From the IMG/VR virus record IMGVR_UViG_3300005563_001228, positions 1-21,262 of that record: a stretch of DNA of 21,262 nucleotides; one strand, 5' to 3'. The notes beneath the pieces are model-generated. The model was not told the DNA's origin and did no database searches. It worked only from the letters and a program-made list of their open reading frames with translations. The stretch comes from a virus. The position numbers were made by a program, and so were the translations under genes. Positions 1 to 21,262 of the stretch are shown here, piece after piece (positions within the stretch are counted from its first letter, which is position 1; the number at the start of each line of letters is the position of its first letter).

Positions 1-3000
1 TCCCTCCCACGGATTGCCATCAACATTCATCTGAACGAAGCCATTCACGTCCGTTCCATTTAGCGTAACTATCTCCCAACACCCCGCCGAACCAACCGTG
101 GTGCTATTGCATTGCGGAGTAATGGTGAGCGTCGTCGTTTGTGTGCCGACAGGACTGACAGTAATGCTCTGTGGCGCTGAAGTAACTTGAGCATAGGTCG
201 AGTTACCAAGATATTTTGCGGTAACGACGTGATTTCCTAGAGACGGGGTGCCCCACCAATACGTGTCCCACTGAGCGTACCCATTGGAGTCGAGGTTCCA
301 TGTTCCCCAACGACTTCCGTCAACGTCGAACTCCACCAGACCACATGCGTAGTTGCAGCCCACATGGGCTAAAGCAACGGCATCTTCCGCTGTGCTGAAA
401 TTCGACGGCGTAAACGACAAACTTATGCTCGGCTGTTGATTGCCAATAGGGTTGATAGTGATTGTGAAATCTTTCGATGAAGGTGCGAAAGCCGAATTGC
501 CTTGATAATAGGCCGTCACAGTGTGTGTCCCAACGGTGAGGTAAGGACTTGGCCAGGAAATTGACCACATGTTGTAAAACGCTGGTATATTGCCGTTTCC
601 ATCGAGCGTCATATCAGGGATCCAACCATGTCCGTCGATAGTCATCGATACGCTGCCGCAGGCTGTGTTGCAGCTGACATGAATCAGGAGCTGAGGTGCT
701 TCTGTGGCGGTGAACGAATCAGGGCTGATTGAAAATGTCGTTGTCGTTGGCTGCAGGCCCGCAGGTGCTACGGTATAGCTCGCCCCTCCTGACGAGGCCG
801 CATGAGTAGGATCCCCTAAGTAGTTGGCTTGTATCCAGTGTCCGCCGACGGTAAGCGCGAACGCCGGAGCCAAACTCGCCGGGATAGAGACAGTACCAGT
901 CCCATTCAGCGGTTGAGTTCCGAGATCCTGGCCATCGATGAGCAGGTCCACCGATCCGCATGCGGCGTTGCAATTTACATGAACCGTAAGCGTGGACGAA
1001 CTGTCCACCGCTGCACTATTCGGGCTGATCGTGACAGTTGTTGTCGTCGGAACTGGTCCTGCCTGCGTTCCCTCAACGGCGATCGCTGTAACTCTTCCGC
1101 GACTATCGTAGGATCGCACGTCCGACAGAGCAATCTTGTTAGCAGTGCTATCCACGCCATAAAAAGCAGCAGAGAGGCCGCCGATAGGGCTGTAAGCGAC
1201 CGTTGCGTTGAGAGTGCTCGCGACTCCAGGATCCGCCTTAAAGAGAGTATCCGGATGTGTACCGTCTGCCCAGGTGCTGACGACGCTGGAAAGCCGCCCG
1301 GCACCATTGTAAGAGCTTGTAAAGCCGATCTGGGGCGATTGCGAACTGCTAAGACCGTTATCGCTGTAAGTTAGGTTGCCGGCAGGATCATACATGTATT
1401 GCAATGAGCTTGCGGTTGCGCAGGGGCTGAAGGCGCACCGGCTCTCCTTCGTAATTCGACCCATCGCATCGTATGTTGTAATAGTGCGTACTGTCAGTGC
1501 ACTCGCCGAGGCGGCAGTAGCGTTCTGTGGGCATGCGGTCGTATATGGCTGGGTCCATTCGGAAGCCAGCCGACCGATTCCATTGGTTGCAACGGTGTCA
1601 TATAGATAGCACACCGACGGAGTCTTGCTTGCAGCAGTACTCGCTGGACCCGAATAGCTCTTGGACAGCATGCGATTTAGCGGATCATAACTATAGCTTG
1701 TCGTGATACCACGAAAGTCGGTTTTGTTGGAGAGATTGCCGTTCGCGTCATATCCGGTGCCTGCAGCACAATTTGTGCCGTCTGGGGATACTCCCCCGGT
1801 AGTCCCGTAGCAGATCCTCCCGGGCTCGGGATTATTTGACTGAAGCAGTCGCGACAATGCATCGTACGTGAATATCCGCGTGCGACTGCTCGAGCAAGAA
1901 GACCCAATCGTATCGGCGCCCCATTGGTCGGCACACAGCATGTTACCGAGCGCATCGTATTTGTAGCTCGTCTTCAGTGCCCCTGGTTCGATAACATAGG
2001 TTAATCGGCCCAGCCCATCGAATGTTCTCTGCCAATGATTTCCGCTTTCATCGACGGAATCGGTCCATGTACCACCTACGAGACCTTGCGCGTGCGGAGT
2101 GCAGGTTGACCCAGACACATTCGGCGATTGGACATTGTCATAGCAAAACTGACTACTAGTGCCGTCTTGGTTGGTGGTCAGTACTGGCCTTCCTAGGGGA
2201 TCGTAATTGAATTGAGAATATCCCCAAGTCAATTCCGAGCAGGATGTCGGCATCACACCCACCTCCGAGGAACATCTGGTCGGGTTCCCTTTTTGATAAA
2301 CCTGTCCCTGCCCATCGTAGATGGTATCGACGTAATCGGTACCGTCGGGATCCGTCGTCAACCGAGTTTGGACCACGTGCCCCAAGCCGTCGAAGTATGA
2401 CGTGCTGGTAATTCCTGATGTCGTAGTGCTGACGTTTGCACCCGCGTCATCATAACAATAGGTCGTATTTCCAATAGGGTAATCAACCTCGCTCAGGCGG
2501 TTTAGGCTGTCCGTGTGAGCGCACCCGACTGGAGGAATATTGTATTTATACGTAGTGGTCTGAGAGTTCTCATCGGTAGAGCTTGAGAGCACCCCCATCG
2601 CATAATCATAAGAAAATGTCTGGTTGTGACCGAGTGGGTCAGTGATCTTAGTCAGATACGAGTTCGAATTGCCAAGCGAATTGGAGCCGCTGTCGGTGTA
2701 GAAATATGTGGTCGTGTGCGAGCTACCCAACATATCCGAGCAGCTGGTGTTCCCGCATGGGTCTGTGGCGCTGATCCGTTGCCCCGTTTCGTCGTAGCTA
2801 TACGTCGTTGTGGGGCCCGCACATGGCCAGCTAGTGCATTTCACCACTTTCGTCACATTGCCTCGAGGTACCTGCTTAATGGCAGCATAATTTGGATCAC
2901 GCGTGCTGATCGGACTCACAGCAGTTGGCACCGGGGTTGTAGCGCCCGCGCCACTCGCACATACGGCAGTACCCCCATCTAGGTAAGCGTCGGTTTCCGA

Positions 3001-4869
3001 AATTATGCTGCCGGTCGTATCGCTGCCGCTATAAACAATCTCCTGGCAAGGGACGGTAGTGTTGAAATAATTGAATACCGTAGTTCTACATCCCGCTGCG
3101 TCTGAGTTATAACATTCCTGATCTTCGTGCAACAGGCCGGCTGCGTAGGTCAAGGTCGCTTGATATACAGTGTTTCCGGATCCCGTTGTGCGCTGCTCAC
3201 TGGTCATCAAATACGGATCGACCCATGTCTTGCTGACCGACATCACATTCTGCGACGACGGATTCCCCCCTGTTCCCCACTGGCTTGTAACAACGCTTTG
3301 TTCAACTGGAATCTGCACCGGTAATTGGGGCCCGGTAGGAAGCGGCGACGTGACTTGGTTCACGGACGAGTAGGTGTATACCGTTTGAGAAGTCTCATGG
3401 GTAAGGTTATCTGTGGTTTTGACAGTGGTTGTTTTCGATCCCCACAGATAATAGTCCGCCCCGGGAGTGGTCGAATATTTGAATTCCTGGATGAGCGCGG
3501 CATCTCCTCCGTTCGTGTACCCCACCTCACGTTCGACAACTACTGGGGCCTGATACCAGTAATCGCAGATGCCGCCCGTCACCTGCGCTGAGCTGCCTGG
3601 CTGGTACCCAGGCAACGAAACGAAATTCGGGTATTGGGACACATCAGCCTGGTAGGAACCCGAGGAGTTCAGGTCCCATTTGTACTTCACCCAACCTCCG
3701 TTGGGGTAATCGATCTCATTCACCAAGCCATACGTTCCATCATATTGAAACGTGTATGCCTGGCCATTCGGGAGATAAATGTGTTTTAACACGTTTAGAC
3801 TCGTGTCATTAACTTGAAAGCTTGCGGAGCAAGCCATAGGCGGCCCCGGGGGGTTTACCTGATTACTGTTAGCCAGATAGCTTGCTGTGGTAGTTGCATA
3901 GTCGAGCGTATACGTCAGACCTCCAATCGCATACGATTGCGGTACTGTTGAATTGACGGGGTAGTTTATTTGCTCGGCAGTTCGCCCGGAGGTGTCGGTC
4001 AGCACCAGTGAGCTCAATCCGCCGGAGCCATTTGGTTGTCCACCGGAAATGTTAATGACATTACCGTTTCTATCCTCGATCTTGTATGGAAAGGGAAAGG
4101 TGGATACGGTCCCATCCTCGGGACTTGCGTATAAGTTCGAGGCGAACCAGTAGACCGTACTATCCGGATCAGTAACGGTAAACGCCGGAGCCGCGTTAGG
4201 ACATCCTGGAGTAGAACTGCTATTAACCGAACCATTGCATTGGCAGGGGCTCCCATTGCAAATGTCACTAAGTTGTGCAGTGTAGCCGTAGATTACGCTC
4301 TGCCCAACAGCAAAAAATCCCGTATTACTCTGACAGTAATTTGGATCGGCATAGCCGCCAGAACCGCCTGCCGGCGAAATGGCGGTTAGTCCCGCCGGAA
4401 TTGACTCGCCGCGCGCATTGAAGAATGTATAAGAGCTACTAATTGAACACTCTACAGAGAAGGCATCGCCGGATTGTGTTTGCTGCAGCGAGGATACAGC
4501 CGCGTAGGGTACCGTATCAGTCCAGCCGTTAAGAGATCTATCTGTTCTGACGTAACCATCACCATCCATCACAGACCTGGCTGTCGTACCACCGGAATAC
4601 TCCTGAGTGGCCATGTGATGCACAATGCCGGAGTTGTACATAATCGAAAATGGCAAAGTAATTCCACGGCTCGGTAGTGTGGGTAGCTGAATGGAGATAC
4701 TGAGACTCCCATTCGCGGGGTTCACTGTCTCATTGAGTCCCCTGACGTAATCATGCCCCGCTCCAAGAGTGGGGCGCATGACATCGCTGCTCAGGGGTAC
4801 ATTCTGCGCTAAGGCATTCGACATTGAAAGCAGTGCACTGGCAAAAGCCACAGCCACCCAGCGTTTCAT
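1..4869 (-). CDS. Secreted RHS/YD-repeat protein with C-terminal Ig-like repeats (3' end outside window)
   Basis: Open without a stop from the ATG at 4869 to base 1 (1623 codons seen); I checked the frame line by line. The start has an upstream GAGAGGA and a clear signal peptide (MKRWVAVAFASALLSMSNALA, probable cleavage ALA/Q near residue 21), so the protein is exported. Residues about 60-900 resemble the extended N-terminal part of large RHS proteins. YD-type repeats follow, e.g. YDALGNML near 971, YDALSRLL near 1002, YDPLNRML near 1061, YDAMGRIT near 1133 and YDPAGNLT near 1160. From about 1270 there are four Ig-like repeats of about 100 residues, each opening with a Thr-rich strand; three carry a conserved C-N-x-A-C-G motif. 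RHS proteins form large beta-cages and often act in contact-dependent competition or surface interactions. No toxin tip or RHS core is visible before the window edge. Family call is firm; role is unknown. Confidence 0.93.
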   Translation of the reverse strand, partial: MKRWVAVAFASALLSMSNALAQNVPLSSDVMRPTLGAGHDYVRGLNETVNPANGSLSISIQLPTLPSRGITLPFSIMYNSGIVHHMATQEYSGGTTARSVMDGDGYVRTDRSLNGWTDTVPYAAVSSLQQTQSGDAFSVECSISSSYTFFNARGESIPAGLTAISPAGGSGGYADPNYCQSNTGFFAVGQSVIYGYTAQLSDICNGSPCQCNGSVNSSSTPGCPNAAPAFTVTDPDSTVYWFASNLYASPEDGTVSTFPFPYKIEDRNGNVINISGGQPNGSGGLSSLVLTDTSGRTAEQINYPVNSTVPQSYAIGGLTYTLDYATTTASYLANSNQVNPPGPPMACSASFQVNDTSLNVLKHIYLPNGQAYTFQYDGTYGLVNEIDYPNGGWVKYKWDLNSSGSYQADVSQYPNFVSLPGYQPGSSAQVTGGICDYWYQAPVVVEREVGYTNGGDAALIQEFKYSTTPGADYYLWGSKTTTVKTTDNLTHETSQTVYTYSSVNQVTSPLPTGPQLPVQIPVEQSVVTSQWGTGGNPSSQNVMSVSKTWVDPYLMTSEQRTTGSGNTVYQATLTYAAGLLHEDQECYNSDAAGCRTTVFNYFNTTVPCQEIVYSGSDTTGSIISETDAYLDGGTAVCASGAGATTPVPTAVSPISTRDPNYAAIKQVPRGNVTKVVKCTSWPCAGPTTTYSYDETGQRISATDPCGNTSCSDMLGSSHTTTYFYTDSGSNSLGNSNSYLTKITDPLGHNQTFSYDYAMGVLSSSTDENSQTTTYKYNIPPVGCAHTDSLNRLSEVDYPIGNTTYCYDDAGANVSTTTSGITSTSYFDGLGHVVQTRLTTDPDGTDYVDTIYDGQGQVYQKGNPTRCSSEVGVMPTSCSELTWGYSQFNYDPLGRPVLTTNQDGTSSQFCYDNVQSPNVSGSTCTPHAQGLVGGTWTDSVDESGNHWQRTFDGLGRLTYVIEPGALKTSYKYDALGNMLCADQWGADTIGSSCSSSRTRIFTYDALSRLLQSNNPEPGRICYGTTGGVSPDGTNCAAGTGYDANGNLSNKTDFRGITTSYSYDPLNRMLSKSYSGPASTAASKTPSVCYLYDTVATNGIGRLASEWTQPYTTACPQNATAASASALTVRTITTYDAMGRITKESRCAFSPCATASSLQYMYDPAGNLTYSDNGLSSSQSPQIGFTSSYNGAGRLSSVVSTWADGTHPDTLFKADPGVASTLNATVAYSPIGGLSAAFYGVDSTANKIALSDVRSYDSRGRVTAIAVEGTQAGPVPTTTTVTISPNSAAVDSSSTLTVHVNCNAACGSVDLLIDGQDLGTQPLNGTGTVSIPASLAPAFALTVGGHWIQANYLGDPTHAASSGGASYTVAPAGLQPTTTTFSISPDSFTATEAPQLLIHVSCNTACGSVSMTIDGHGWIPDMTLDGNGNIPAFYNMWSISWPSPYLTVGTHTVTAYYQGNSAFAPSSKDFTITINPIGNQQPSISLSFTPSNFSTAEDAVALAHVGCNYACGLVEFDVDGSRWGTWNLDSNGYAQWDTYWWGTPSLGNHVVTAKYLGNSTYAQVTSAPQSITVSPVGTQTTTLTITPQCNSTTVGSAGCWEIVTLNGTDVNGFVQMNVDGNPWEG

Positions 4870-5299
4870 TTTAGGTAGTCCTCTCTCGCGGCATGGGAAA
4901 CATGGAGTTCTCTGAATGTCATTGCGGGTGGTGGTTCAAATGATCGTGATGAGCAGATACTCATATGGTGCTGTATCCCCATCGCCATTGGATCGAAAGG
5001 CACCACAAATAATTTCTTTCCGAGTCGTGTTGCCCATCCCCAAGTGCACGAGAGCGCGTTGTGATTCCGACTAAACATAGATTCCAGGGATAGCTAAGCG
5101 CGTCACTGCGCGGTGACGTCTTTTTCCAATGGGCGCGATTACAGTGTGAAGTCCCTGCTGTCGATGCGGCTGGATAGTCTACCGAAACTACTCTGCAGGA
5201 GCCCTATGCAAGAGTTCGCACTGAAGCGAACGTACGTCCAATAGTGGGTTGCTGATGTTGAAAAGGTGGCCGACACTCAAAATAGCTTGCGCCCACTTT
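4870..5299. other. Intergenic region upstream of the RHS gene
   Basis: About 430 bases between the RHS start and the decayed DUF5681 copy. No convincing gene is visible: open frames here are short and show no recognisable motif. The RHS promoter must lie here, but I could not identify a consensus -35/-10 pair on the minus strand. The only structured element seen is the palindrome plus T-run at 5101-5127. Confidence 0.5.
5101..5127 (+). terminator. Terminator-like hairpin with T-run
   Basis: Inverted repeat CGTCAC (5101-5106) / GTGACG (5113-5118) with a 6-nt loop, followed by TCTTTTT. It has the form of an intrinsic terminator reading on the plus strand, but no plus-strand gene lies upstream, so it may be a relic or may have another role. 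Confidence 0.3.
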
Positions 5300-5607
5300 C
5301 GTGCACCGCTGCTCACTTCGCTATACCACGAAGGAGCTATTGCCGATGTACCAGCCGCGCGAAAAACGAAGAAGCATCTACAGCGCCGTAGGAACTATCG
5401 ATCTGCTGCCGCGGAACTGGAGACGTCAGCTCAAACGGCTTACACGATTGAGCGCTTGCATCAATGCCGAGCCGAAATCGATTGGCTTCTTCGGTCCCCC
5501 AGATGGTTCCCGGGAGCACCCTTCTTGAATGGCACACTTTTTGGCGGCTTCTTGCAGCCGACCCCATAGTCTCTGATGCGATTACCAAGTTCGCTGTGGT
5601 CGCTCAC
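5300..5607 (-). pseudogene. Decayed copy of a DUF5681 gene
   Basis: Read on the minus strand from a likely GTG near 5607, the sequence gives SDHSEL..., then DYGVGCKKPPKS and FKKGAPGN. These are the diagnostic KPPKSGQFKKGxSGNPxGRPKKP motif of DUF5681, seen intact in the gene at 10927-11370. After a frame change it continues as PKKPIDFGSALMQALN. Further downstream the reading frames break and only faint similarity remains; the 3' limit near 5300 is approximate. It sits directly downstream of a decayed methyltransferase on the same strand, exactly as in the intact module, so it is a relic of a second copy of that operon. It is too divergent in bases to be a recent duplication. Confidence 0.72.
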
Positions 5608-5679
5608 CGGATCACCTCTGCATCCCCGTTGTATTAGCTCAGCATGGAGGTTTCTCTGACCGCGAAACTCTGGCCTGAT

Positions 5680-5869
5680 TCGCTGTGGATCGCATCTCGC
5701 TTGGTTCGGCGCTGCCAACGCCGAATGATCCTGTCGACGCACAGCGGATCTAGTTCCAGGCCATAGCAGACCCGCCCAGCGCGTTATGGATCCAAGGGTC
5801 TTGTGGATGCGGTTTGAGACATGTTACGGGAAGATAGCTTACTTTCAAGGCTGCAGTTTGCGATCTCAT
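5680..5869 (-). pseudogene. Remnant of a ParB-domain DNA methyltransferase with a large internal deletion
   Basis: Bases 5801-5869 match the first codons of the intact methyltransferase gene (12661-12729) and include an equivalent start region at 5867-5869. Bases about 5680-5797 match its 3' end (about 11440-11593). The shared GATCCAAGG (5789-5797; 11585-11593 in the intact copy) marks the deletion junction. About 1.07 kb is missing, covering most of the ParB domain and the DPPY motif. Flanking order (upstream GC-palindromes, methyltransferase, DUF5681) is preserved. The gene cannot be functional. Confidence 0.78.
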
Positions 5870-6355
5870 AATGTCATTGCTGTGCTTGGAGAACCAAGCT
5901 GAGTTAAAGTCCTATGTAACTCACTAGTGCGCAAATCGTGTTTCTCGGGCGCGCGCCCGTGAATGCTGTCGGCGCGCCGAACGCCGAATCTTGGCGCCCA
6001 TACGAACTCCGCGACAATCTCACGTTAAGGCCGACAGCAAGTTCCGCTTTGAGCAAGGCAATTCGCAAGTGCAAGCGAGGTAAGGTGTACGAACAGTGGG
6101 CGGCCTCAGTGCTGCCTGCGCGTTTGTAAGCGATCTAATTCTGGTACGGGGCGGAGGAGGGCTTCGATCAACCGTGTCAGGGATGGATCCGAGGCACTCA
6201 TTTCGGCCGGAGCCTGCCCCTTTCCACCATTTCTGCAGGGCGTGCCGATTCTGAGCGGCATCGACCGCGACCCGCGCTAGCAGCAGTAATGAAATCCAGC
6301 ACCGCACGGCAGACGAGCGGCGAGAATCGCTACTGCGCCCGTCGTACATTGAGGC
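5870..6355. other. Region upstream of the decayed methyltransferase, retaining the ancestral leader
   Basis: No gene seen. Bases about 5931-5996 resemble the region upstream of the intact methyltransferase: TCACTAGTGCGCAAATCG matches TCACTGCGCAAATCG near 12785, and a run of GGGCGCGCGCCCG, GGCGCGCC and TTGGCGCCCAT parallels the GGCGCC cluster at 12856-12913. The remainder, 6004-6355, holds nothing I recognise. Confidence 0.5.
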
Positions 6356-7539: not shown

Positions 7540-9087
7540 ATGACTGCACAGTCTGATCTCACCACGAAGATCCCGGTTGCTCAATACGTCCGCATGTCGA
7601 CGGAGCACCAACAGTACTCGACAGAGAATCAGCAGCTTGCAATTTTGCAGTACGCACAGACACATGGGATGACCCTGGTCCGTACATACGCCGACCATGG
7701 TAAGAGTGGGCTGGTTCTCTCGGGAAGATCAGGACTAACTAATCTTTTGCAAGATGTGAGATGTGGAGAGGCTCCGTTTCGGGCAGTTCTTGTCTACGAC
7801 GTAAGCCGGTGGGGTCGCTTTCAGGATCCGGACGAGGGAGCGCATTACGAACACGTTTTGAAACAGTGCGGCATCCAGGTCCACTACTGCGCCGAGCCTT
7901 TTGCGAATGACGGGAGCCTTCCGTCCGCGTTGATCAAGACCCTAAAGCGAACAATGGCTGGCGAGTATAGCCGCGAGCTATCGACAAAAGTATTCATAGG
8001 ACAATGCCGACTTATTGAGCTCGGCTTTCGTCAAGGCGGACCTGCTGGCTTTGGATTACGAAGACATCTAGTCGACGAAGATCGAAACTTCAAACTGGAA
8101 CTGCGGCCAGGGGAGCGAAAGAGCATCCAAACGGACCGCGTGATACTTGCGCCTGGGAGTGAAGAGGAAATTAGGGTCGTCAAACGCATCTTCCTCTGGT
8201 TTACAGAACGTGGATACACAGAAAGAGAAATTGCCGGATTTTTGAATCAGGAAAAGGTGTTGACCGATTTTGGCCGGGCATGGACGCGGAGTACTGTCCA
8301 CGGGATCCTGACGAACCCGAAGTATATCGGCACGAACGTTTACAACCGAAGTTCGTTCAAGCTGAAACAGATCCACGTGAAGAATCCACCGGAGAAGTGG
8401 ATATGTCGCCCGGAAGCCTTCGAGGCAATTATCCCTCCAGAGCAGTTTGAAAAAGCCCTCACAATTATTGCCGAACGCAATCGACGGTATACAGACGAGG
8501 ACCTCCTCGCACGCCTGAAGCAGCTTCTATTATGCGCAGGCACTCTCTCGGGGGTGATTATCGACGAAGCGGAGGATATCCCGTCCAGCGCGGTTTACGC
8601 CTCACGGTTCGGAAGTCTTCCTCGCGCTTACTCCTTAATTGGGTGGGATTGCGGTCGGGATTACAGATATCTGGAGATCAACCGGCAGCTCAGAGAGCAA
8701 CATGCGGGGCTCGTGAAAGCGATCTGGGCTGAGTTGAAGACAGTCGGTGCCTCGATTTCTCAGGATCGTAAAACCGATCTATTGACGATCAACAATGAAT
8801 ATAGCGCGTCGTTGATTCTTGCCCGCTGTCGGGAAACTTCGGCAGGCAGCCACAGGTGGATTATCCGTTTCGATACAAGTCTCAATCCGGACATTACAAT
8901 TGCCGCGAGGCTTACACCGGCTAATCACGAAATCCTTGACTACTATCTTTTGCCGTCAGTTGCAGATCTTGGCCCAACTCTCCGGCTCGCTTCAGAGAAC
9001 CCGCTTTTTCTTGAAGTCTTTCGGTTTCCGGACTTAAGTTTTTTTATGACTCTAGCCAAGCGAACACGAATCGAGGTGGCAGCGTGA
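7540..9087 (+). CDS. Large serine recombinase (first gene of a recombinase-ParB-ParB operon)
   Basis: 515 residues. The N-terminal resolvase domain (about 12-165) has the signature QYVRMSTEHQ with catalytic Ser at residue 20, and the arginine motif VYDVSRWGR near 90. A 'recombinase' DNA-binding domain follows (about 175-300: GGPAGFGL, EIAGFLNQ, ILTNPKYIGTNVYN). The C-terminal third lacks the Cys pairs of a zinc ribbon. Such enzymes join or resolve DNA at att-like sites through a phosphoserine intermediate. Its stop overlaps the GTG of the next gene (GTGA), so the three genes are translationally coupled. It is distant from the two recombinases at the right end, which share the other family's TRKSSEEG motif. 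The ribosome site upstream is weak, but the ATG fits the conserved N-terminus. It may mobilise this block; its sites were not identified. Confidence 0.92.
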   Translation: MTAQSDLTTKIPVAQYVRMSTEHQQYSTENQQLAILQYAQTHGMTLVRTYADHGKSGLVLSGRSGLTNLLQDVRCGEAPFRAVLVYDVSRWGRFQDPDEGAHYEHVLKQCGIQVHYCAEPFANDGSLPSALIKTLKRTMAGEYSRELSTKVFIGQCRLIELGFRQGGPAGFGLRRHLVDEDRNFKLELRPGERKSIQTDRVILAPGSEEEIRVVKRIFLWFTERGYTEREIAGFLNQEKVLTDFGRAWTRSTVHGILTNPKYIGTNVYNRSSFKLKQIHVKNPPEKWICRPEAFEAIIPPEQFEKALTIIAERNRRYTDEDLLARLKQLLLCAGTLSGVIIDEAEDIPSSAVYASRFGSLPRAYSLIGWDCGRDYRYLEINRQLREQHAGLVKAIWAELKTVGASISQDRKTDLLTINNEYSASLILARCRETSAGSHRWIIRFDTSLNPDITIAARLTPANHEILDYYLLPSVADLGPTLRLASENPLFLEVFRFPDLSFFMTLAKRTRIEVAA

Positions 9088-9944
9088 CCGAAACTCCGAT
9101 CGAACTGATTCCCGTAGATAAAATCCGCATTGTCAATCCAAGAACAAGAAGTAAGGCCGTCTGGCTAACAATCGTCGGAAGTATCAGATCTGTTGGGTTG
9201 AAAAAACCAATTACTGTAGCGCGGCGAAAACAACCAGATTCTGAAGGACGATTGTTCGATTTGGTATGTGGACAGGGCCGACTGGAAGCATTTGCCGAGT
9301 TGGGAGAACCCGATATTCCGGCAATAGTTTCCGAGGCTTCCAAAGACGATCATCAACTGATGAGCCTCGCCGAAAATATTGCCCGTCGGCCACCCTCCAA
9401 CAAAAGCATCTATTTAGAGGTGAAACGCCTGCGAGAATCTGGGTATACGTCCCCAGCCATTGCGCGAAAACTAGGATTACACCGCACGCATATTCACAAT
9501 ATCGTCCGGCTGGTTGAGTGTGGAGAGGCAAAGCTGACAGAGGCCGTGGAAGCTGGACGGCTGCCAGTCAGCGTCGCCGTGGAAATTGCAACAGGGAGTG
9601 ACGAAAGTGTTCAGCGTGCTCTGATGGAAGGCTATGAAAGCGGCAATATCCGTGGCTCACAAATGAGAGCGATACGATGCATGATGGAAAAACGCGCTGA
9701 AGATACCAGGCCTCTCAGCAAAATAGAGAAGAAGCCACTCACCGGAGCTGCATTAGCCGGGATTTTCAAAGCTCGGGTAAAGGAGCAGCAACGGCTTGTT
9801 CTGAAAGCCAACGAAACTGAGCAACTTCTTCTCGCAATCGCCTCTGCAATGAAAGTACTGCTTCACGACGAAGACTTCTTGACGCTCCTTCGCGCGGAAG
9901 ATCTTTTTGATATACCTGAGCAACTCGCTACCCGAATTGCGTAG
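9084..9944 (+). CDS. ParB N-terminal-domain protein (ParB/RepB-like)
   Basis: 286 residues starting at a GTG that overlaps the recombinase stop, with GAGGTGG 4-10 nt upstream. The ParB N-terminal fold is seen in order: IPVDKIRIVNPR, VGLKKPITV, the nucleotide-binding CGQGRLEAF (box equivalent to GxRR), and SLAENIARR. A helix-turn-helix follows (YTSPAIARKLGLHRTHIHNIV, residues about 113-132), then an alpha-helical C-terminal part. Classical ParB proteins are CTP-dependent clamps that load at parS, but no parS-like palindrome and no ParA gene are seen here, so chromosome or plasmid partition is not supported. Its coupling to a recombinase suggests a role in recombination directionality, immunity or element maintenance; that is inference. 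Confidence 0.9.
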   Translation: MTETPIELIPVDKIRIVNPRTRSKAVWLTIVGSIRSVGLKKPITVARRKQPDSEGRLFDLVCGQGRLEAFAELGEPDIPAIVSEASKDDHQLMSLAENIARRPPSNKSIYLEVKRLRESGYTSPAIARKLGLHRTHIHNIVRLVECGEAKLTEAVEAGRLPVSVAVEIATGSDESVQRALMEGYESGNIRGSQMRAIRCMMEKRAEDTRPLSKIEKKPLTGAALAGIFKARVKEQQRLVLKANETEQLLLAIASAMKVLLHDEDFLTLLRAEDLFDIPEQLATRIA

Positions 9945-9956
9945 GAGGCAGACGAT

Positions 9957-10859
9957 ATGAATCATCCAATCGCATTTCAGCAGTACATTGTCTCGATATC
10001 TTTGGACCTGATACTGCCGCAACAAGAACTCTCCGTCGAGACTCGTAAGAGCATTTCATATCGCTATATCGCGGCCTCGATTAAGGAGATCGGCTTAATC
10101 GAGCCTTTGGTGGTATTCCCCAGGTCGGCTACCCAGTACCTTCTGCTGGACGGCCACACTCGCCTGGACGTGCTAAAAGCCCGTGGAGATAAAAGTGCGC
10201 GATGCATCCTGACTACAGATGATGAGGCATACACATATAACCGGCGAGTCAACGCGATACCTCCGATCGCTCAGCACCTAATGCTGCTGGAGGCCCTCCG
10301 GAATGGCCTGAGCGAGGAGCGAATAGCGCGCTCTCTCCAAGTTGACGTATCGGTTATTCGTCAAAAGAGGGACATGCTGAATGGAATATGCCCTGAAGCT
10401 GTTGGACTGCTGAGAGACAAAAAGTTAAACGCCAATATCTTTACTTTACTGCGGAAGATGAAACCGTTCCGACAAATTCAAGTAGCAGAGCACATGATCG
10501 CAAACTCTAGCTATAGCGTTACTTTTGTGAAGGCTCTACTGTATGCGACACGACCTGAACTTCTCATTGACAAGGCGCGGTCGCCACATGGGTCGAACGG
10601 GAGCGACGCATCGAGGAACCTCCTGATTCAGGAGAGCGAAGAGCTCCTTAGAGGACTCAAGAGCCTTGAAGATTCATACGGTAAGAATGCACTTGCTCTC
10701 ACGGTCTGTTATGCCTACGTCGATAAGCTCCTAGAGAACACTCAAGTGATTCGCTATCTTGAACGAAAACACAAGCAGACCCTCGACGCGATACGATTTT
10801 GCCGGGCTCAGAAGAAGCTCCAAGCTAACCGCACCGTCCACAGAATTAGCGTGGCGTGA
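9957..10859 (+). CDS. ParB/RepB-like protein (RepB C-terminal-type partition protein)
   Basis: 300 residues, ATG at 9957 with a strong TAGGAGG that overlaps the stop of the upstream gene. The N-terminal ParB-like part has IKEIGLIEPLVV, LLLDGHTRLDVLKARG (residues about 64-79) and YNRRVN. A central HTH region follows (GLSEERIARSLQVDVSVIRQ), then a helical C-terminal half of the type annotated as plasmid partitioning RepB C-terminal. It is the second ParB-type protein of the operon and is shorter and more divergent in the CTP motifs than canonical ParB. From memory, recombinase plus two such proteins is a recurring trio in bacterial genomes, but I know of no assigned function. Confidence 0.88.
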   Translation: MNHPIAFQQYIVSISLDLILPQQELSVETRKSISYRYIAASIKEIGLIEPLVVFPRSATQYLLLDGHTRLDVLKARGDKSARCILTTDDEAYTYNRRVNAIPPIAQHLMLLEALRNGLSEERIARSLQVDVSVIRQKRDMLNGICPEAVGLLRDKKLNANIFTLLRKMKPFRQIQVAEHMIANSSYSVTFVKALLYATRPELLIDKARSPHGSNGSDASRNLLIQESEELLRGLKSLEDSYGKNALALTVCYAYVDKLLENTQVIRYLERKHKQTLDAIRFCRAQKKLQANRTVHRISVA

Positions 10860-10926: not shown

Positions 10927-11370
10927 TCAATCATCGTCGTCATCATCGTCATCTTTCGCGAGCTGCTCACGACCCTGGTTAACAATCCATGCGAGTTCGT
11001 CGTCGGTTAGATCGTCTGCTTTGAAAGAGCCAATCCCAGGCTTGGTTCCAGGACTCTGCTCGGTCTGTGCAGCTTTGCCCTCAGCTAACTCCAAGAGTTT
11101 AAAGAGGAGGCGTTGTGCCTGGATGTTTCCCGCAGCCGCTTTGTGCCACACCTGCTTAACAACCAGATCGATTTTCTTGACCCGCTTGGGTCTCCCGTTC
11201 TCATTGATAGGCACCTCTAAATTGCCCTCCCGTAGTAGTGTCGAGTGAAGATCTCTTGGCTTTTTTGGGCGGCCGGAGGGGTTTCCCGAAGCGCCTTTTT
11301 GGAATTGACCACTCTTGGGCGGCTTGCCATACCCAATCTCGTAATCTGGAGTTTCGTCATCTTTGGCCAT
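10927..11370 (-). CDS. DUF5681 protein with poly-Asp tail
   Basis: 147 residues. ATG at 11370 is preceded by AAGGAG, which overlaps the stop codon of the methyltransferase, so the two are coupled. The N-terminus carries the defining DUF5681 motif (DYEIGYGKPPKSGQF, KGASGNPSGRPKKP, residues about 11-40). It is followed by NENGRPKRVKKIDLVVKQ and a helical AAAGNIQAQRLLFKLLEL segment. It ends in eight consecutive Asp residues. Family members are found in bacteria and phages, often beside ParB-domain methyltransferases, and have no established biochemical role. The basic GRPKK stretch looks suited to nucleic-acid binding, and the acidic tail could regulate it (inference). Confidence 0.85.
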   Translation of the reverse strand: MAKDDETPDYEIGYGKPPKSGQFQKGASGNPSGRPKKPRDLHSTLLREGNLEVPINENGRPKRVKKIDLVVKQVWHKAAAGNIQAQRLLFKLLELAEGKAAQTEQSPGTKPGIGSFKADDLTDDELAWIVNQGREQLAKDDDDDDDD

Positions 11371-11379
11371 ATCTTCTCC

Positions 11380-12729
11380 TTAGCTTTCCGCTACTGCAGT
11401 TGGTGTCTGCTGATATCCCTGCGCGGCCTCTCTGGCCGCAAAGCTCTCTCCCGATTGCACGTGAATGGCAGCGCGGTTGGTGCGTCGTTGCCAGCGCCGA
11501 ATGATCGAGTCGACATAGAGTGGGTCTAATTCCAGGCCATAGCAGACTCTCCCCGCGCGCTCAGCAGCAATGACCGCTGTTCCTGATCCAAGGAACGGAT
11601 CGAGAACGAGAGCCCCTCGGGCAGTTGAGTCCTTGATCGCATCAGCAATGAGCGCGACAGGCTTCGGTGTTGGGTGTAGGGCAAGCAGATCTCCATCCGG
11701 TCCCGAGCGCGAGAAGGTATTTGCCGAGGGATAGTTCCAGACGTTGGTGCGGTAGCGCCCGAACTTGCCCAATTGGACATTGTTGCGGTGGGATGCTCCG
11801 CCGTGTTTGAACAGGAAGATCAGCTCATGTGCGCTGCGATAGAAGCTTCCCATCCCACCATTGCTCTTGGCCCATACGCAGAGATTCATCAGTTCGCCAT
11901 AGGCGCTGGTTCCGGCCGCCAGCATATGGTTGATATGCCTCCAATCTATAAAGTAGTACGCTAGCGAACCGGGCCTGCTGCTTTGTTTCGACAGGGACAT
12001 GGCCTTGCGTAGGAACTCAGTAAACTGCCCTGAGCTCATCTCCCCAGAGGCCATGGCAAACTCCCGGTGACGTGTCTTTCCGAGACCGGTGGCATGCCCA
12101 TCGATTACGACGTTGTATGGTGGGTCGGTTATGACCAGGTCCGCTTTCGCTCCATCCAGCAGCAGGTTATAGCTTTCAGACAAGAGCGAATTGCCACAAA
12201 GAACGCGATGCTTGCCGAGCCGCCAGAGATCGCCGACGGCGGATACCGCTGACGCTTCAATCTCGGGTAGACGGTCATCCGGATCGGCTTCATGGGCGCT
12301 CTCCAGGCCACCGATCAGAACGTCGATTTCTGCGATCTCGAAGCCCGTGACCTCAAGCTCGAAGTCAAGCTCCATCTCGGAGAGCACTTTGAGCTGTTCT
12401 CCAAGGAGCCGCTCATCCCAAGCAGAATTGAGAGTCAATTGGTTGTCTGCGATGAGGAACGCCGAGTACTGCGACTGGTTCAGGTGATTCAGCTTGATGA
12501 CCGGAACGGTGCTCCAGCCAAGTTTTCGTGCGGCCAGCAGCCGTCCATGCCCAGCGACTACGTTGTGACTGTCATCGGCAAGAATCGGAACGTTGAAACC
12601 AAATGCCTCGATGCTCTGAGCGATCTGGCCTACCTGCTTCTCGGTATGAACTCGGGGATTCTGTGGATGCGGTTTGAGAGATGCTACAGGGAGGTAGGTT
12701 ACTTCTAACGCTGCTGTTTGTGATCCCAT
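11380..12729 (-). CDS. ParB-domain fused DNA methyltransferase (beta-class N4-cytosine/N6-adenine)
   Basis: 449 residues, ATG at 12729 with AGAGGAAA upstream. Residues 10-115 form a ParB N-terminal domain (LPVASLKPHPQNPR, VVAGHGRLLAARKLG, FLIADNQLTL). Residues 165-430 are a DNA methyltransferase: catalytic DPPY at 202-205 comes before HPTPKP (352-357) and the AdoMet-binding DPFLGSGT (377-384). That order is typical of beta-class amino-methyltransferases, which modify N4 of cytosine or N6 of adenine. No cognate restriction gene is linked; the only nuclease relic nearby is the HNH pseudogene about 5 kb away, so it is probably an orphan methylase. ParB-methylase fusions of this kind are common on phages and integrative elements, often with DUF5681 next to them. 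A decayed paralogue lies at 5680-5869. Confidence 0.93.
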   Translation of the reverse strand: MGSQTAALEVTYLPVASLKPHPQNPRVHTEKQVGQIAQSIEAFGFNVPILADDSHNVVAGHGRLLAARKLGWSTVPVIKLNHLNQSQYSAFLIADNQLTLNSAWDERLLGEQLKVLSEMELDFELEVTGFEIAEIDVLIGGLESAHEADPDDRLPEIEASAVSAVGDLWRLGKHRVLCGNSLLSESYNLLLDGAKADLVITDPPYNVVIDGHATGLGKTRHREFAMASGEMSSGQFTEFLRKAMSLSKQSSRPGSLAYYFIDWRHINHMLAAGTSAYGELMNLCVWAKSNGGMGSFYRSAHELIFLFKHGGASHRNNVQLGKFGRYRTNVWNYPSANTFSRSGPDGDLLALHPTPKPVALIADAIKDSTARGALVLDPFLGSGTAVIAAERAGRVCYGLELDPLYVDSIIRRWQRRTNRAAIHVQSGESFAAREAAQGYQQTPTAVAES

Positions 12730-13069
12730 TGCTTTCCTCTTCTCGGCTCATAAAGGAGCTGGTTGAAAAATGTCATGGAATCAATCACTGCGCAAATCGA
12801 GCTAACAACAATTTTGGTATTTCGGCCCAGTTGATTTGATTAGGGTTAGTCGGTCGGGCGCCCGACGTCTGGCGCCCACGGCTCTCTGGCGCCGGCCGGT
12901 TATCATTGGCGCCCATCTTTATTGAAGCCGCAGATATGGGCGTCCCGCGTGGGCGCAGACACTCAAAATGCCCTGCGCCAAGCCAAACTGCGAACTACAA
13001 GGGACCGGATTCTATCCCGCCCGGGGCTCCTGGATACCCTGTTCCTATGTAGCCCGAGCTATGAGGTCG
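12730..13069. other. Upstream region of the methyltransferase operon
   Basis: No convincing gene. Open frames in 12920-13170 on the plus strand lack family motifs and partly overlap the small gene on the other strand. The region carries the GGCGCC cluster (12856-12913) and a segment near 12785 that is conserved in the decayed paralogous module. I could not name a minus-strand promoter with confidence. Confidence 0.5.
12856..12913. repeat. Cluster of four GGCGCC palindromes
   Basis: GGGCGCCCG, TGGCGCCC, TGGCGCCGG and TTGGCGCCC occur within about 58 bases, 127-184 nt upstream of the methyltransferase start. A matching but less regular cluster (GGGCGCGCGCCCG, GGCGCGCC, TTGGCGCCC) lies at the same relative place in the decayed copy. 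Possible roles are an operator for the ParB or DUF5681 proteins, or a self-methylation control site; neither is shown. Confidence 0.5.
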
Positions 13070-16583: not shown

Positions 16584-18506
16584 ATGGTCCGATGCGCGAT
16601 CTATACCCGCAAATCCTCCGAAGAAGGCCTGGAACAGTCGTTCAACTCGCTTGATGCGCAAAGAGAAGCCTGTCAGGCCTACATCCAGAGCCAACGCCAC
16701 GAAGGCTGGAAGGTGCTGCCGGCCCGATACGATGACGGTGGATTTTCGGGCGGCAATATGGAACGACCAGCCCTCAAGAAGCTTCTCGAGGACATCGCCG
16801 CCGAACAGATCGATACCGTAGTTGTATATAAGGTTGACCGTCTGACACGGTCTCTCGCGGACTTTGCCAAGATCGTCGAGCAGTTCGATCGGCAGGGTGT
16901 CAGCTTCGTTTCCGTTACCCAGCAGTTCAACACGACCACCTCCATGGGCCGGCTGACCCTCAATGTCCTGCTGTCGTTTGCTCAATTTGAGCGGGAGGTC
17001 ACGGGAGAACGGATCCGTGACAAGGTGGCTGCCTCGAAACGCAAGGGTATGTGGATGGGCGGTGTGGTGCCGCTTGGCTACGACATCGTGAACCGGCGCA
17101 TGGAGATCAATCCAAAAGAAGCCGATACCATCCGCCAGATCTATCGTTGCTATCTGGATTTGGGTTGCGTCTCAAAGCTTCGGCAGCATCTCGATCAAAT
17201 CGGCATCCGGAGCAAGGAGCGCGTGAGCCGTGCCGGGCGACGTTCGGGAGGGAGCGCAATTTCCCGGGGCGCTCTGTACGAAATCCTAAGAAGCCCTCTA
17301 TATATAGGTGAGGTTCACTATCAGGGGTCCGTGTACGCAGGCCAGCATGAGGCTATCTTGGATCGCAAAACATGGAATCAGGTCCAAACCCGACTGGAAG
17401 AGAACTTGCAGGCTCCCAGAAGGGGGACGGGGCTGGCGAGGAAGAGCCTGTTAACGGGGTTGCTTTACGACGCAGCCGGCCACCGCTTTGTTCCCACACA
17501 CGATTTCCTTGCTTCTCGCTTCGTCGCTAACAATGAGCAGATTTGGAACCGTGACAGCTTCGAGCGGGTTACGTTTTCTGCCAGCTCTTTCGACGCAATT
17601 ATGATGTGCCTTGAACAGATTGAACGGGGCGCAGCCGATGATTTCATTCGCAATGTGTATGACTGGAACCTTTACGGCGTTGGCTACTCGTTAGGAGAGA
17701 GTCGCAGAGACAACATCTCGTCCGAAATGACAACGGTCATTCTCGCAATGTTTGCTGAGAGACGATGGGACCCGGTCCTTCCTAGTAGGCAAAGCGCGAT
17801 CGACACACTCCAGCAGCTAAGACAAAAAGGTGCAGCTTCATTCTTGAGCGCGCCCTCCCTTGAGGAGGTCTTTCAATTAGTGCGGGATCATCCGTCCGGA
17901 CCAGATACACGGTGGTTCGACGTGTGGAAAGCCCTGTTCACTGTTCTGCCCGGGTCAGTGGTAGAGGACGAATGGGTTCGGCGTCTGGGAAACCCTGACT
18001 CGGTCGAGGGTTGGACAATCGCCAATGTCCTCAAGAGAGTGTATTTATCCGACCGACAACAACAAATATTGAGAGATTTCCTGTCGCACGATGATTCGGT
18101 AGTACGTTGGCGTGCGGCGCATTCGATCGGTTCCTTTCCATCTGAGGACAATGCCTTGGCTCTGATTGAGTTGATAGATTTTCACGACAAGAATGTGAGA
18201 TATGGCGTAGTCAGGTCTCTACTGGAGATGGCGTCTCGCGTCGAGGGGCATCTACGGAACACGATCTTCGATCGGCTGAAGTCCAAAAAGGACGCAATCG
18301 TTGAGTTTCCGTCCGTTCGCGAAGAAGTTCGAAAGTGTGTGCTGATTGCCAACGTTGCAAATCCGTTCGAATGGCGCGAGAGATGTCTGAACTTGATGAT
18401 GGAGCTTCTGCCTTTCGAATCTGACTTTGCTCGTGAACGATGGGGAAGAGCTATACAGCAGATGCTCGACTTATTCACGCACATTGAAGGGGTGGTCAAT
18501 GCTTGA
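16584..18506 (+). CDS. Serine recombinase N-terminal two-thirds fused in frame to a HEAT-repeat-like protein
   Basis: 640 residues. Residues 1-306 are a large serine recombinase: catalytic Ser11 in YTRKSS, SLDAQREAC, arginine motif VDRLTRSLADF, FAQFEREVTGERIRDK, and the recombinase domain with LRSPLYIGEV and GHRFVPTH. The usual next segment (GRRYRYYTSQAV, intact in the paralogue at 19910) is absent. From Asp307, near base 17500, about 334 unrelated residues follow. They are helical, with HEAT-like units at about 490-600 (LSHDDSVVRWRAAHSIGSF, HDKNVRYGVVRSLLEM) and no recognisable catalytic motif. The 3' end overlaps the cytidine deaminase start by 8 nt. The likely origin is a deletion joining a recombinase to the second half of a HEAT-protein gene in a HEAT-deaminase operon. 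The recombinase part probably cannot work without its C-terminal DNA-binding and coiled-coil region. Confidence 0.85.
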   Translation: MVRCAIYTRKSSEEGLEQSFNSLDAQREACQAYIQSQRHEGWKVLPARYDDGGFSGGNMERPALKKLLEDIAAEQIDTVVVYKVDRLTRSLADFAKIVEQFDRQGVSFVSVTQQFNTTTSMGRLTLNVLLSFAQFEREVTGERIRDKVAASKRKGMWMGGVVPLGYDIVNRRMEINPKEADTIRQIYRCYLDLGCVSKLRQHLDQIGIRSKERVSRAGRRSGGSAISRGALYEILRSPLYIGEVHYQGSVYAGQHEAILDRKTWNQVQTRLEENLQAPRRGTGLARKSLLTGLLYDAAGHRFVPTHDFLASRFVANNEQIWNRDSFERVTFSASSFDAIMMCLEQIERGAADDFIRNVYDWNLYGVGYSLGESRRDNISSEMTTVILAMFAERRWDPVLPSRQSAIDTLQQLRQKGAASFLSAPSLEEVFQLVRDHPSGPDTRWFDVWKALFTVLPGSVVEDEWVRRLGNPDSVEGWTIANVLKRVYLSDRQQQILRDFLSHDDSVVRWRAAHSIGSFPSEDNALALIELIDFHDKNVRYGVVRSLLEMASRVEGHLRNTIFDRLKSKKDAIVEFPSVREEVRKCVLIANVANPFEWRERCLNLMMELLPFESDFARERWGRAIQQMLDLFTHIEGVVNA

Positions 18507-18885
18507 CGGGGGGGACGCTTTGCTGCGCAAAGCGTGGGACGTTCGAGAACGCGCGCATGTCATTGGCCCGACCAAGGTAGGTTGCGCTATTTTGTCCGAC
18601 GGTGGCCGCATACATTCCGGATGTAACGTTGAGCACCGGTATCGCTCGCATGATGTTCACGCGGAGGTAAATGCCATTACCTCCATGGTGGCGGGCGGTG
18701 ACCGGAACATTGTGGCGCTGGCAATCGCCGCTGAGCGAGAGCGCTTCACTCCTTGTGGGGCTTGTCTGGATTGGATCTTCCAATTCGCGAATCCCGAAGC
18801 GGCGATAGTACTCTGCCAATCCCAACGTGGAGGCCCGATAACGAGATATTACCTGCGCGACCTGATGCCTTACTACCCACGGTGA
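18499..18885 (+). CDS. Cytidine deaminase-like zinc enzyme
   Basis: 128 residues from the ATG at 18499, which overlaps the preceding stop and so suggests translational coupling. It has the cytidine-deaminase zinc site: SGCNVEHRY, then HAE (His54 ligand, Glu56 proton shuttle), and PCGAC (Cys86 and Cys89 ligands). The length matches short tetrameric Cdd enzymes, although these usually use Cys in place of His54. The family hydrolyses cytidine or deoxycytidine to uridine forms; bacterial relatives with altered specificity exist. The active site looks complete. The partner is the HEAT-repeat-like part encoded just upstream, not a pyrimidine-salvage operon, so a specialised role such as nucleotide-based defence is possible but unproven. 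Confidence 0.87.
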   Translation: MLDGGDALLRKAWDVRERAHVIGPTKVGCAILSDGGRIHSGCNVEHRYRSHDVHAEVNAITSMVAGGDRNIVALAIAAERERFTPCGACLDWIFQFANPEAAIVLCQSQRGGPITRYYLRDLMPYYPR

Positions 18886-19433: not shown

Positions 19434-19913
19434 ATGGGTAAGAACAAGATAACGAAATCGAAACACCCCAATCCAGAGGCCGTTCATCGGCTCTTGAAGG
19501 AGCTACCAGCGATGGATCCGAAGGCGCTCCGGAAGCTTTGGTACGATCTGTTCGGCCGAATAGCCAGTCCGGCTTTATTCAGAGCAACACTGATCCCGAT
19601 CTTGGCCTATCGCATTCAAGAGAAAGCGTATGGCGGGCTCAAGGAATCCACTCGCAAACGGTTGCATGAACTCGCCCAGGATCGTGTGAACGGTAAAGCC
19701 ATTCGGACGATGATCCGACCGAAGATTGGCACGCGCTATGTGCGAGAGTACGGTGGCAAGCTTCACGAGGTCACAGTTCTTGCGGCTGGATACGAATATG
19801 AGGGAGAGGTTCACCGCAGCCTGACGGAGGTAGCAAAGGTCATCACCGGCACAAAATGGTCCGGGCCGGTGTTCTTCGGTTACAAGCGGCCGGGGAAGGG
19901 AGCGCAAGCATGA
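19434..19913 (+). CDS. DUF2924 family protein
   Basis: 159 residues, ATG at 19434 with GAGGAGG. The family signature is seen along its length: LLKELPAMDPKALRKLW, then LFRATLIPILAYRIQEKAYGGL (read in two parts), IRPKIGTRYVREYGGKLHEVTVL, and the C-terminal VITGTKWSGPVFFGYK. The C-terminal half resembles a small beta-rich nucleic-acid or recombinase-accessory fold, but no function is established. Its stop overlaps the ATG of the recombinase (ATGA), so the pair is coupled. DUF2924 may be a directionality or accessory factor for the recombinase (inference from constant linkage). The paralogue at 16159 is frameshifted and a third copy at 14208 is truncated. Confidence 0.88.
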   Translation: MGKNKITKSKHPNPEAVHRLLKELPAMDPKALRKLWYDLFGRIASPALFRATLIPILAYRIQEKAYGGLKESTRKRLHELAQDRVNGKAIRTMIRPKIGTRYVREYGGKLHEVTVLAAGYEYEGEVHRSLTEVAKVITGTKWSGPVFFGYKRPGKGAQA

Positions 19914-21262
19914 TCCCCCGCACCCGTTGTGCTATCTACACCCGCAAGTCTTCCGAGGAAGGCTTGGAGCAAGCCTTCAACTCACTGGATGCCCAACGCG
20001 AAGCCTGTGAGGCTTTCGTGAAAAGTCAGCAGCATGAGGGCTGGCAGGCGATCGGGACTCACTACGACGACGGCGGATTCACCGGTGGGAACATGGAACG
20101 TCCTGCGCTGAAGCGCCTTATGGCCGATATTCACGCGGGCAAGGTGTCGGTCGTGGTTGTTTACAAGGTTGACCGGCTTACCCGCTCGCTGGCCGACTTC
20201 GCCAAACTCGTCGAACAGTTCGATAGATACAACGTCAGCTTCGTTTCGGTCACTCAGCAATTCAATACAACGTCTTCGATGGGTCGACTCACGCTTAACG
20301 TGCTGCTGTCTTTCGCACAGTTTGAACGCGAAGTCACCGGCGAACGCATCCGCGATAAGGTCGCTGCTTCGAAGAAGAAGGGGATCTGGATGGGAGGTTC
20401 CATCCCACTTGGCTATGACGTGCGCGATCGCCAATTACAGATCAACGAAGCGGAGGCCGCAACCGTGCGCACTATTTTCGACCAATATCTGAGGTTAGGC
20501 AACGTCAACCTCCTGCGGGGATGGTTGCGTGAGAATGACATCCGCAGCAAAGCAGGGAACAATTTCTTCGGCGGTCCGCTCTATCAGGTACTGCACAACC
20601 CGGTTTATATCGGCCGCACACGCCACAAGACGAATACCTATCCTGGCCAACACCAGGCGATCCTCGATTGCGAAACCTGGGACAAGGTGCAAGCGCTGCT
20701 CGCCGCGAATCGCCAAGGCGGAAAACGGAAAGCACGTGCAACCAAGACCACTCTCTTTACCGGGCTCCTCTTTGACGCTGAAGGCACGCGTTACACGCCG
20801 ACCCACGCCACAAAGAATGGCCGACGCTACCGCTACTACACTTCACAGGCAGTAATCAAGAAGACAGAAAAAGTTGAGACTCCCACGCGTATTCCAGCGC
20901 ACGACATAGAATGCGCGGTGATTGAACGCCTTTTGAAGCTCCTTCGTGAGCCAGGGGACTTGGTCACGAGCATCCGGGATGATTCCGAAAAGGGAGTGAC
21001 TCAGCCCGGCGATTTGTTCACAAGGATAGTCTCCGGCGCGACATCAGCCGCAGCAACTTGGCAAGCCCTCACCGGCCCAGACAGAGAGCATTTCCTCCGG
21101 GCGGTCATCGACCGCGTCATCATCCACGCAACCCGCGTGGAAATCCGAATCCGTGTGCCCCAATTGATCCAGCAACTCCTCGGAAACAACTCGAGTCGAG
21201 ACGGAAACACGACCGTGTCACCCCAGGTTCACATGCAACTTGTAGCCTCGATCGACTGTCCT
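19910..21262 (+). CDS. Large serine recombinase (3' end outside window)
   Basis: 451 codons seen from the ATG at 19910; open to the window end. The resolvase domain has catalytic Ser14 (YTRKSSEEG), SLDAQREAC, VDRLTRSLADF and FAQFEREVTGERIRDK. The recombinase domain follows with GGPLYQVLHNPVYIGRT. Where many relatives have a zinc ribbon this one has LFTGLLFDAEGTRYTPTHA without Cys pairs, then GRRYRYYTSQAV and a C-terminal region with ALTGPDREHFLRAVIDRV. It is closely related over about 300 residues to the recombinase half of the fusion at 16584, and serves as a reference for what that fusion lost. Coupled to DUF2924. Probably the active integrase or resolvase of this cassette. Confidence 0.93.
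   Translation, partial: MIPRTRCAIYTRKSSEEGLEQAFNSLDAQREACEAFVKSQQHEGWQAIGTHYDDGGFTGGNMERPALKRLMADIHAGKVSVVVVYKVDRLTRSLADFAKLVEQFDRYNVSFVSVTQQFNTTSSMGRLTLNVLLSFAQFEREVTGERIRDKVAASKKKGIWMGGSIPLGYDVRDRQLQINEAEAATVRTIFDQYLRLGNVNLLRGWLRENDIRSKAGNNFFGGPLYQVLHNPVYIGRTRHKTNTYPGQHQAILDCETWDKVQALLAANRQGGKRKARATKTTLFTGLLFDAEGTRYTPTHATKNGRRYRYYTSQAVIKKTEKVETPTRIPAHDIECAVIERLLKLLREPGDLVTSIRDDSEKGVTQPGDLFTRIVSGATSAAATWQALTGPDREHFLRAVIDRVIIHATRVEIRIRVPQLIQQLLGNNSSRDGNTTVSPQVHMQLVASIDCP

Follow-up and report, generated by a model that had tools for sequence, protein, structure and literature searches.

A serine recombinase gene trio with two ParB-family partners in plasmids, prophages and defence islands

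Introduction

Why would a serine recombinase be encoded together with two ParB-type proteins and no ParA? The question is raised by three adjacent genes in a viral stretch of 21262 bases, IMG/VR record IMGVR_UViG_3300005563_001228, the whole of which was analysed and is referred to here as the window. The genes encode a serine recombinase, a ParB-type protein (ParB1) and a RepB-type protein (RepB2), and we refer to them as the trio. ParB-fold proteins outside partition are common and few of them have a known job; the trio ties two of them gene-to-gene, across phyla, to an enzyme of easily assayed activity. An earlier note on this DNA had suggested that two cytidine triphosphate (CTP) clamp proteins could control synapsis, directionality or target choice of the recombinase. 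Our analysis puts at close to even chances the reading that the trio is the recombination module of a mobile-element family, with the two ParB-family proteins as DNA-bound accessory factors. No published description of the trio was found in the literature searched, the coverage of which mostly excluded subscription papers and preprints.

A conserved accessory gene unit

The three open reading frames (ORFs) of the window trio are the following.

7540-9087, + strand: serine recombinase, 515 amino acids; Resolvase and Recombinase domains and a C-terminal domain without zinc ribbon
9084-9944, + strand: ParB1, 286 amino acids; ParB_N, helix-turn-helix (HTH) and RepB-type C-terminus
9957-10859, + strand: RepB2, 300 amino acids; RepB-type protein

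In Pfam, the window recombinase matches PF07508 (Recombinase; 2.8e-23) and PF00239 (Resolvase; 4.7e-18), ParB1 matches ParB_N (8.3e-07), HTH_ParB (4.4e-05) and RepB (1.8e-08), and RepB2 matches RepB (1e-30), with a weak ParB_N match (0.0088) that lies under its cut-off. No ParA-like ORF was found in the window and no replication gene among the window ORFs scanned, in agreement with the earlier note. The translational coupling that it described holds for one junction of the window: the GTG start of ParB1 sits within the recombinase stop, an overlap of 4 nt, but ParB1 and RepB2 are separated by a 12-nt gap. Among the loci collected, a spacing of -4 or -1 nt is found between recombinase and ParB1 in 80/97 and between ParB1 and RepB2 in 55/108.

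Relatives were collected with RepB2. The plasmid search matched 103 records, the genome scan gave 546 confirmed relatives, with 80 loci kept, and the viral scan gave 50; a first viral scan with the single RepB2 sequence had returned 38 pattern matches and no relative. Two sets of 109 are used below: the RepB2 genes with at least 2.7 kb of upstream sequence, on which trio completeness was counted, and a separate set of non-redundant loci, kept after clustering RepB2 DNA at 85%. A complete, ordered trio is present in 103 of the 109 RepB2 genes of the first set, and the order recombinase, ParB/RepB, RepB was seen in all five plasmid loci inspected first. Five of the six exceptions are frame-broken, fragmentary or without a proper ParB1; the sixth, L033, has all three genes in order, but outside the spacing rule. 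Chance adjacency of the three genes is therefore rejected, and the proposed tie between the recombinase and two ParB-family proteins is confirmed by the homologous trios. The distance matrices of the three proteins correlate as well (r 0.717, 0.721 and 0.891 over 89 loci; permuted maximum 0.147), that is, the three proteins co-vary.

Trio loci span at least five phyla (Pseudomonadota, Acidobacteriota, Planctomycetota, Hydrogenedentota and Myxococcota). These are largely clustered on the recombinase tree, with 5 changes where the minimum possible is 4, and therefore the trio is old and its exchange across phyla looks rare. On the same tree the window trio groups with Acidobacteriota, its nearest relative (L011) sharing 63% identity. 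RepB2 is sporadic, being found in 6/396 Acidobacteriota genomes and 17/289 Alphaproteobacteria genomes at one or two copies each; the trio is an accessory gene unit. Upstream of the trio, a divergent small gene with an HTH-like look is present in 51/88 loci, though not in the window, and the two such genes checked had no match in Pfam.

Not an ordinary partition system

ParB and RepB domains in both partners would fit a plasmid partition or incompatibility operon that had lost its ParA or borrows one. The two partners share the PF07506 domain with RepB of repABC plasmids, but unlike repABC no ParA or RepA was found near the trio: the one ParA-like gene among the 109 non-redundant loci lies 6.7 kb away. 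Many trio loci are on chromosomal-size contigs, two trio-bearing Sphingobium plasmids have an annotated ParA-ParB pair elsewhere on the plasmid, and the constant partner of the ParB-family genes is a recombinase. Against the partition model TIGR03454 (partition_RepB), ParB1 scores 43 bits, where the cut-off is 201.5. Partition is therefore rejected as the function of the trio and has become barely credible; the earlier note had named trios embedded in plasmids with parA and parS as the outcome that would speak for it, and the plasmids inspected carry a separate ParA-ParB pair, so that this outcome did not arise. Of the conserved palindromes that it proposed to look for beside the trios, none was common to the 22 loci inspected. 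A ParA-binding motif was seen in 3/103 ParB1 and 0/107 RepB2 proteins, which is uninformative, as the control ParB is also without it.

The recombinase

Two features of the window recombinase are considered here.

7597-7599, + strand: codon of Ser20, the catalytic position according to aligned relatives
8503-9084, + strand: recombinase C-terminal domain (residues 322-515), with a predicted fold resembling restriction-type and Holliday-junction nucleases

The catalytic residues are almost invariant across 90 aligned recombinases (Ser20 in 88/90; Asp87, Arg90 and Arg93 each in 89/90). In the model of the full recombinase (predicted local distance difference test, pLDDT, 84.5; predicted template modelling score, pTM, 0.52), the first two domains match serine integrases by Foldseek (9dxd, E 1.2e-14; also 9rah and 9iu2), which groups them with the SPbeta, phiC31 and Bxb1 integrases. 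The structure alignments took 72 of 88 listed recombinases (A4) and 71 of 90 (A6). The trio enzyme thus shares with large serine recombinases and phage serine integrases (phiC31, Bxb1, SPbeta) the Resolvase and Recombinase domains, the catalytic residues and the two-domain structure. Phage serine integrases are helped by a partner protein, the recombination directionality factor (RDF), and we propose a partner role in the trio; the trio operon has two conserved ParB-family genes where those integrases have the RDF. The trio enzyme differs from them in its C-terminal domain, which stands where they have a zinc ribbon with its coiled coil. The zinc ribbon PF13408 gave no match in the window recombinase up to E 0.01, and the C-terminal domain has one conserved cysteine column (430), which is too few for a zinc ribbon. 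Judged by its sequence, the recombinase would work like a serine integrase, yet it lies outside the canonical class, the zinc ribbon being missing. The trio enzyme, being a serine recombinase, is not an integron-type tyrosine integrase (IntI).

The C-terminal domain is present in 117 trio recombinase ORFs; elsewhere it was seen in two trio recombinase fragments and, in part, in one further recombinase. Modelled alone (pLDDT 89.0), it gave nothing at E <=0.001 by Foldseek against the PDB, where the best match had E 0.091 and the best weak rows were the restriction enzymes PvuII and NhoI. VIA-align placed I-Ssp6803I at the top (Z 9.4, root-mean-square deviation 3.9, 124 aligned), followed by Hjc Holliday-junction resolvases (Z about 6-7), Eco15I, EcoRV and PvuII. 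A sequence search of the domain against solved chains returned no credible match (best E 0.027), and its best viral model match was an uncharacterised phage protein (E 1.8e-04). From the structural model we infer a PD-(D/E)XK-like fold, and a conserved Pro-Asp (domain positions 129-130) and Asp (domain position 146) would fit its two acidic positions. The usual lysine was not seen in the domain, and therefore DNA cleavage by it is doubtful.

A second recombinase of the same subfamily adjoins the trio at 10978-13059 of locus L038; its C-terminal domain is partial, and ParB genes belonging to it were not detected.

Nucleotide-pocket motifs of ParB1 and RepB2

The motifs below were located by alignment.

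near 9267-9281, + strand: ParB1 C-motif, CGQGR
near 9372-9386, + strand: ParB1 P-motif, ENIAR
near 10143-10163, + strand: RepB2 LLDGHxR, conserved
near 10221-10241, + strand: RepB2 DE..TYN stretch, replacing the canonical ENxxR

ParB1 relatives keep CGQGR and ENxAR, with Gly63 in 103/103 aligned proteins, Arg66 and Asn98 in 102/103, and Glu97 and Arg101 in 100/103. The C- and P-motif positions and the HTH are shared with the CTP-switch proteins ParB, Noc and KorB, and a ParB1 profile run against solved chains matched only ParB, Noc, KorB, a ParB-like nuclease-domain protein and sulfiredoxin. RepB2 retains LLDGxxR (Asp65, Gly66 and Arg69, each 107/107), but differs from the CTP-switch proteins in its P-motif, where Thr93 and Asn95 are each found in 107/107 proteins and Tyr94 in 103/107. 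The suggestion of two CTP clamps therefore remains plausible for ParB1, to judge by its motifs, and is unproven for RepB2, as its second motif is altered. ParB1 resembles the orphan, mobile-element-linked ParB-fold proteins covered by a survey (PMC12704722) in being itself orphan and mobile-element-linked; unlike the proteins covered there, it sits in a fixed operon with a serine recombinase. The main text of that survey does not contain the words 'recombinase', 'integrase' or 'RepB'.

Movement of the trio

The trio travels as a block of about 4 kb. The Agrobacterium plasmids pAt C58 (L008) and pAt Sta005 (L164) have in common a 3904-bp block of 96.9% identity with different flanking genes on the two plasmids; the block consists of the small divergent gene and the trio, and no other long shared stretch is near. 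Similarly, the trio regions of a Pseudomonas plasmid and a viral contig are 92.9% identical over 4482 bp.

The Agrobacterium block is bounded at each end by a 28-bp sequence; the two are similar, lie in direct orientation and are separated by 3882 bp in pAt C58 and pAt Sta005 alike (positions 5057 and 8939 in L008). They have the core CCTTGANNGGAATCGAACC and resemble a tRNA T-arm read backwards. Neighbouring units use similar boundaries. In C58 the block is preceded by an AbiE-type unit, the end of which coincides with a 28-bp-like site in L165 and with a weaker one in L166; the Fic unit after the block starts at such a site in L167 and L168 and at a weaker one in L169. Allowing up to three mismatches, the core pattern occurs 21 times on pAt C58 (W01), 20 of them on one strand, where the reversed control occurs once; six further plasmids have 3 to 20 occurrences each. 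Sites of this kind, oriented and bounding several units, show that pAt plasmids exchange gene units at dispersed positions. The core sites of W02 switch strand between two arms.

Other candidate boundaries were set aside. A tRNA-fMet lies about 2 kb upstream of the trio in several Rhodobacteraceae loci, and copies of its 3' half occur; a second tRNA-fMet copy was not found on the 83-kb trio contig G001, and it is therefore not established as the trio's site. Direct repeats flank the trio (E <1e-4) in 6/93 loci, compared with 1/93 shuffled pairs, but they are fragments of neighbouring genes, differ in kind and were rejected as the trace of one mechanism. An apparent rearrangement in Roseomonas has its left breakpoint at the edge of an insertion sequence (IS), a right-edge repeat in Pseudomonas was not clearly above the reversed-pattern control, and short repeats shared by the trio flank and the distal end of the G001 prophage were no better than interior controls.

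Genomic surroundings

The trio occurs in plasmids, prophages and defence islands. Of the 109 non-redundant loci, 102 have a downstream gene of at least 60 amino acids, and 90 of these genes were scanned; they include five N6/N4 methyltransferases, five tyrosine integrases, and three each of McrBC, Resolvase and Fic. Gene roles read from sequence suggest that the G001 contig carries the genes of a tailed phage; the trio occupies one end, and a further serine recombinase is found close to the opposite end. On Sphingobium plasmids (L161-L163, L190-L192), a zincin-like (ArdC-type) gene and DUF2493 flank a hot spot that is occupied by the trio, by arsenic genes, by nhaA or by a tyrosine integrase with IS21.

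Possible roles of the trio

We propose that the serine recombinase cuts and joins DNA at the element ends, and that the two ParB-family proteins of its operon serve as accessory factors bound to DNA. ParB1 would most likely load near the site as a nucleotide-dependent clamp, RepB2, with its altered motif, would be a partner or adaptor, and the two would jointly determine the choice of sites to be paired and the direction. If the partners control recombination, the trio would represent a site-specific recombinase under a nucleotide switch. That would be a new way of fixing direction and choice of partner, and possibly a tool. The position of the trio at the ends of mobile elements agrees with such a recombination module. 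Of 28 viral contigs of at least 30 kb, 19 have the RepB2 start no more than 7 kb from the contig end on its upstream side, against an expectation of 4.6, and 2 have it that close to the opposite end. Shared breakpoints also speak for the module: related trios lose homology 120-300 bp past RepB2 in 70/103 pairs, and on the upstream side 300-620 bp out in 52/102 pairs. Several observations weigh on the other side. Viral contig ends may be set by integrase-seeking software. In 11 of the same 28 contigs, by reading, the end away from the trio has an unrelated integrase, tyrosine or serine, within 7 kb; the trio therefore accompanies many phage integrases, does not replace them, and need not be a phage integrase. 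The pairs behind the breakpoint counts are not independent, most coming from one Rhodobacteraceae group. A common attachment site for the trio recombinase was not found in clades other than Agrobacterium, and the homology ends share none. Even in Agrobacterium, the boundary repeats also flank trio-less units and are common on plasmids in which no trio was seen, and a second Agrobacterium trio, beside tniQBA, has no such repeats nearby. The movement of pAt units can therefore not be assigned to the trio.

The trio could also be a resolution system that acts on transposon cointegrates, plasmid dimers or phage concatemers at a res-like site, where ParB1 and RepB2 would build the synaptic complex and the trio would be moved about by its carriers. 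Tn5053-type transposons carry a resolvase following tniQ; by eye, the trio comes directly after a tniQ-like gene in L042 and L055, and in L170-L172 it is convergent with annotated tniQ-tniB-tniA. Trios on Sphingobium plasmids with a ParA-ParB pair of their own would suit such a system. However, many loci have no evident transposon or plasmid, Sphingobium plasmids of the same type hold other genes in that place and no trio there, and a res-like repeat array was not seen beside the trio, so that we consider resolution unlikely, though a serious candidate. Much the same low probability applies to the trio as a resident accessory locus, shuffled by other systems (dispersed pAt sites, homologous recombination at hot spots) and with its own role elsewhere, for example in regulation or in competition between mobile elements. 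The trio-less pAt units with the same boundary sites, the mixture of mobile and defence genes downstream and the Sphingobium hot spot all agree with such a locus. Yet a near-invariant active site in a tight operon argues that recombination itself is selected, and none of the three trio proteins matched a PADLOC defence model. Finally, the trio itself may shuffle gene units at dispersed oriented sites, as a serine recombination machine guided by a ParB clamp: ParB1 would load at a site and slide until partners are found and aligned, RepB2 would direct, and the nuclease-like C-terminal domain would read the site; the 28-bp sequence with its CCTTGA edge on Agrobacterium pAt plasmids would be the candidate site. 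Such a system would resemble an integron, with serine chemistry and a nucleotide switch as its basis, and we think it improbable.

Phage-related neighbours in the window

Further genes of the window surround the trio without belonging to it.

11380-12729, - strand: N6/N4 DNA methyltransferase with an N-terminal ParB domain (ParB_N 2.7e-06, Pfam)
10927-11370, - strand: DUF5681 protein (PF18932, 2.8e-22) beside the methyltransferase; a neighbour of the trio and not a member
5465-5938, - strand: remnant resembling the DUF5681-methyltransferase pair, on the left side of the trio; repeats 11239-11559 and 12642-12799 in direct orientation

The earlier note had counted the ParB domain of the methyltransferase as the third one at this locus. 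The domain is present, but it is of the phage ParB-methyltransferase type, no trio member, and a methyltransferase with DUF5681 is within 3 kb of the trio in only 6 of the 109 non-redundant loci (the window, L030, L037, L046, L065 and L079). Such fusions are described as enriched in phages and prophages (PMC12704722) and as located upstream of terminase genes, in a ParB-terminase locus, in Paracoccus phages (PMC6536676). The remnant is 64.6% identical to the right-hand pair over 325 nt and 70.6% over 163 nt. With a phage-type fusion on one side and a decayed copy on the other, the window trio seems, therefore, to adjoin a decayed phage-like packaging region.

Elsewhere in the window, the N-terminal half of a serine recombinase is joined to a HEAT-repeat region at 16584-18506 (PF00239, PF07508, PF13646), possibly a fusion left by a deletion, and a cytidine/deoxycytidylate deaminase-like ORF (18427-18885) overlaps the end of this gene. 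A DUF2924 gene and then another large serine recombinase, which runs off the window end, occupy 19434-21262. At the opposite end, a protein with RHS repeats and bacterial Ig-like domains is encoded on the - strand (1-4869) and also runs off the window.

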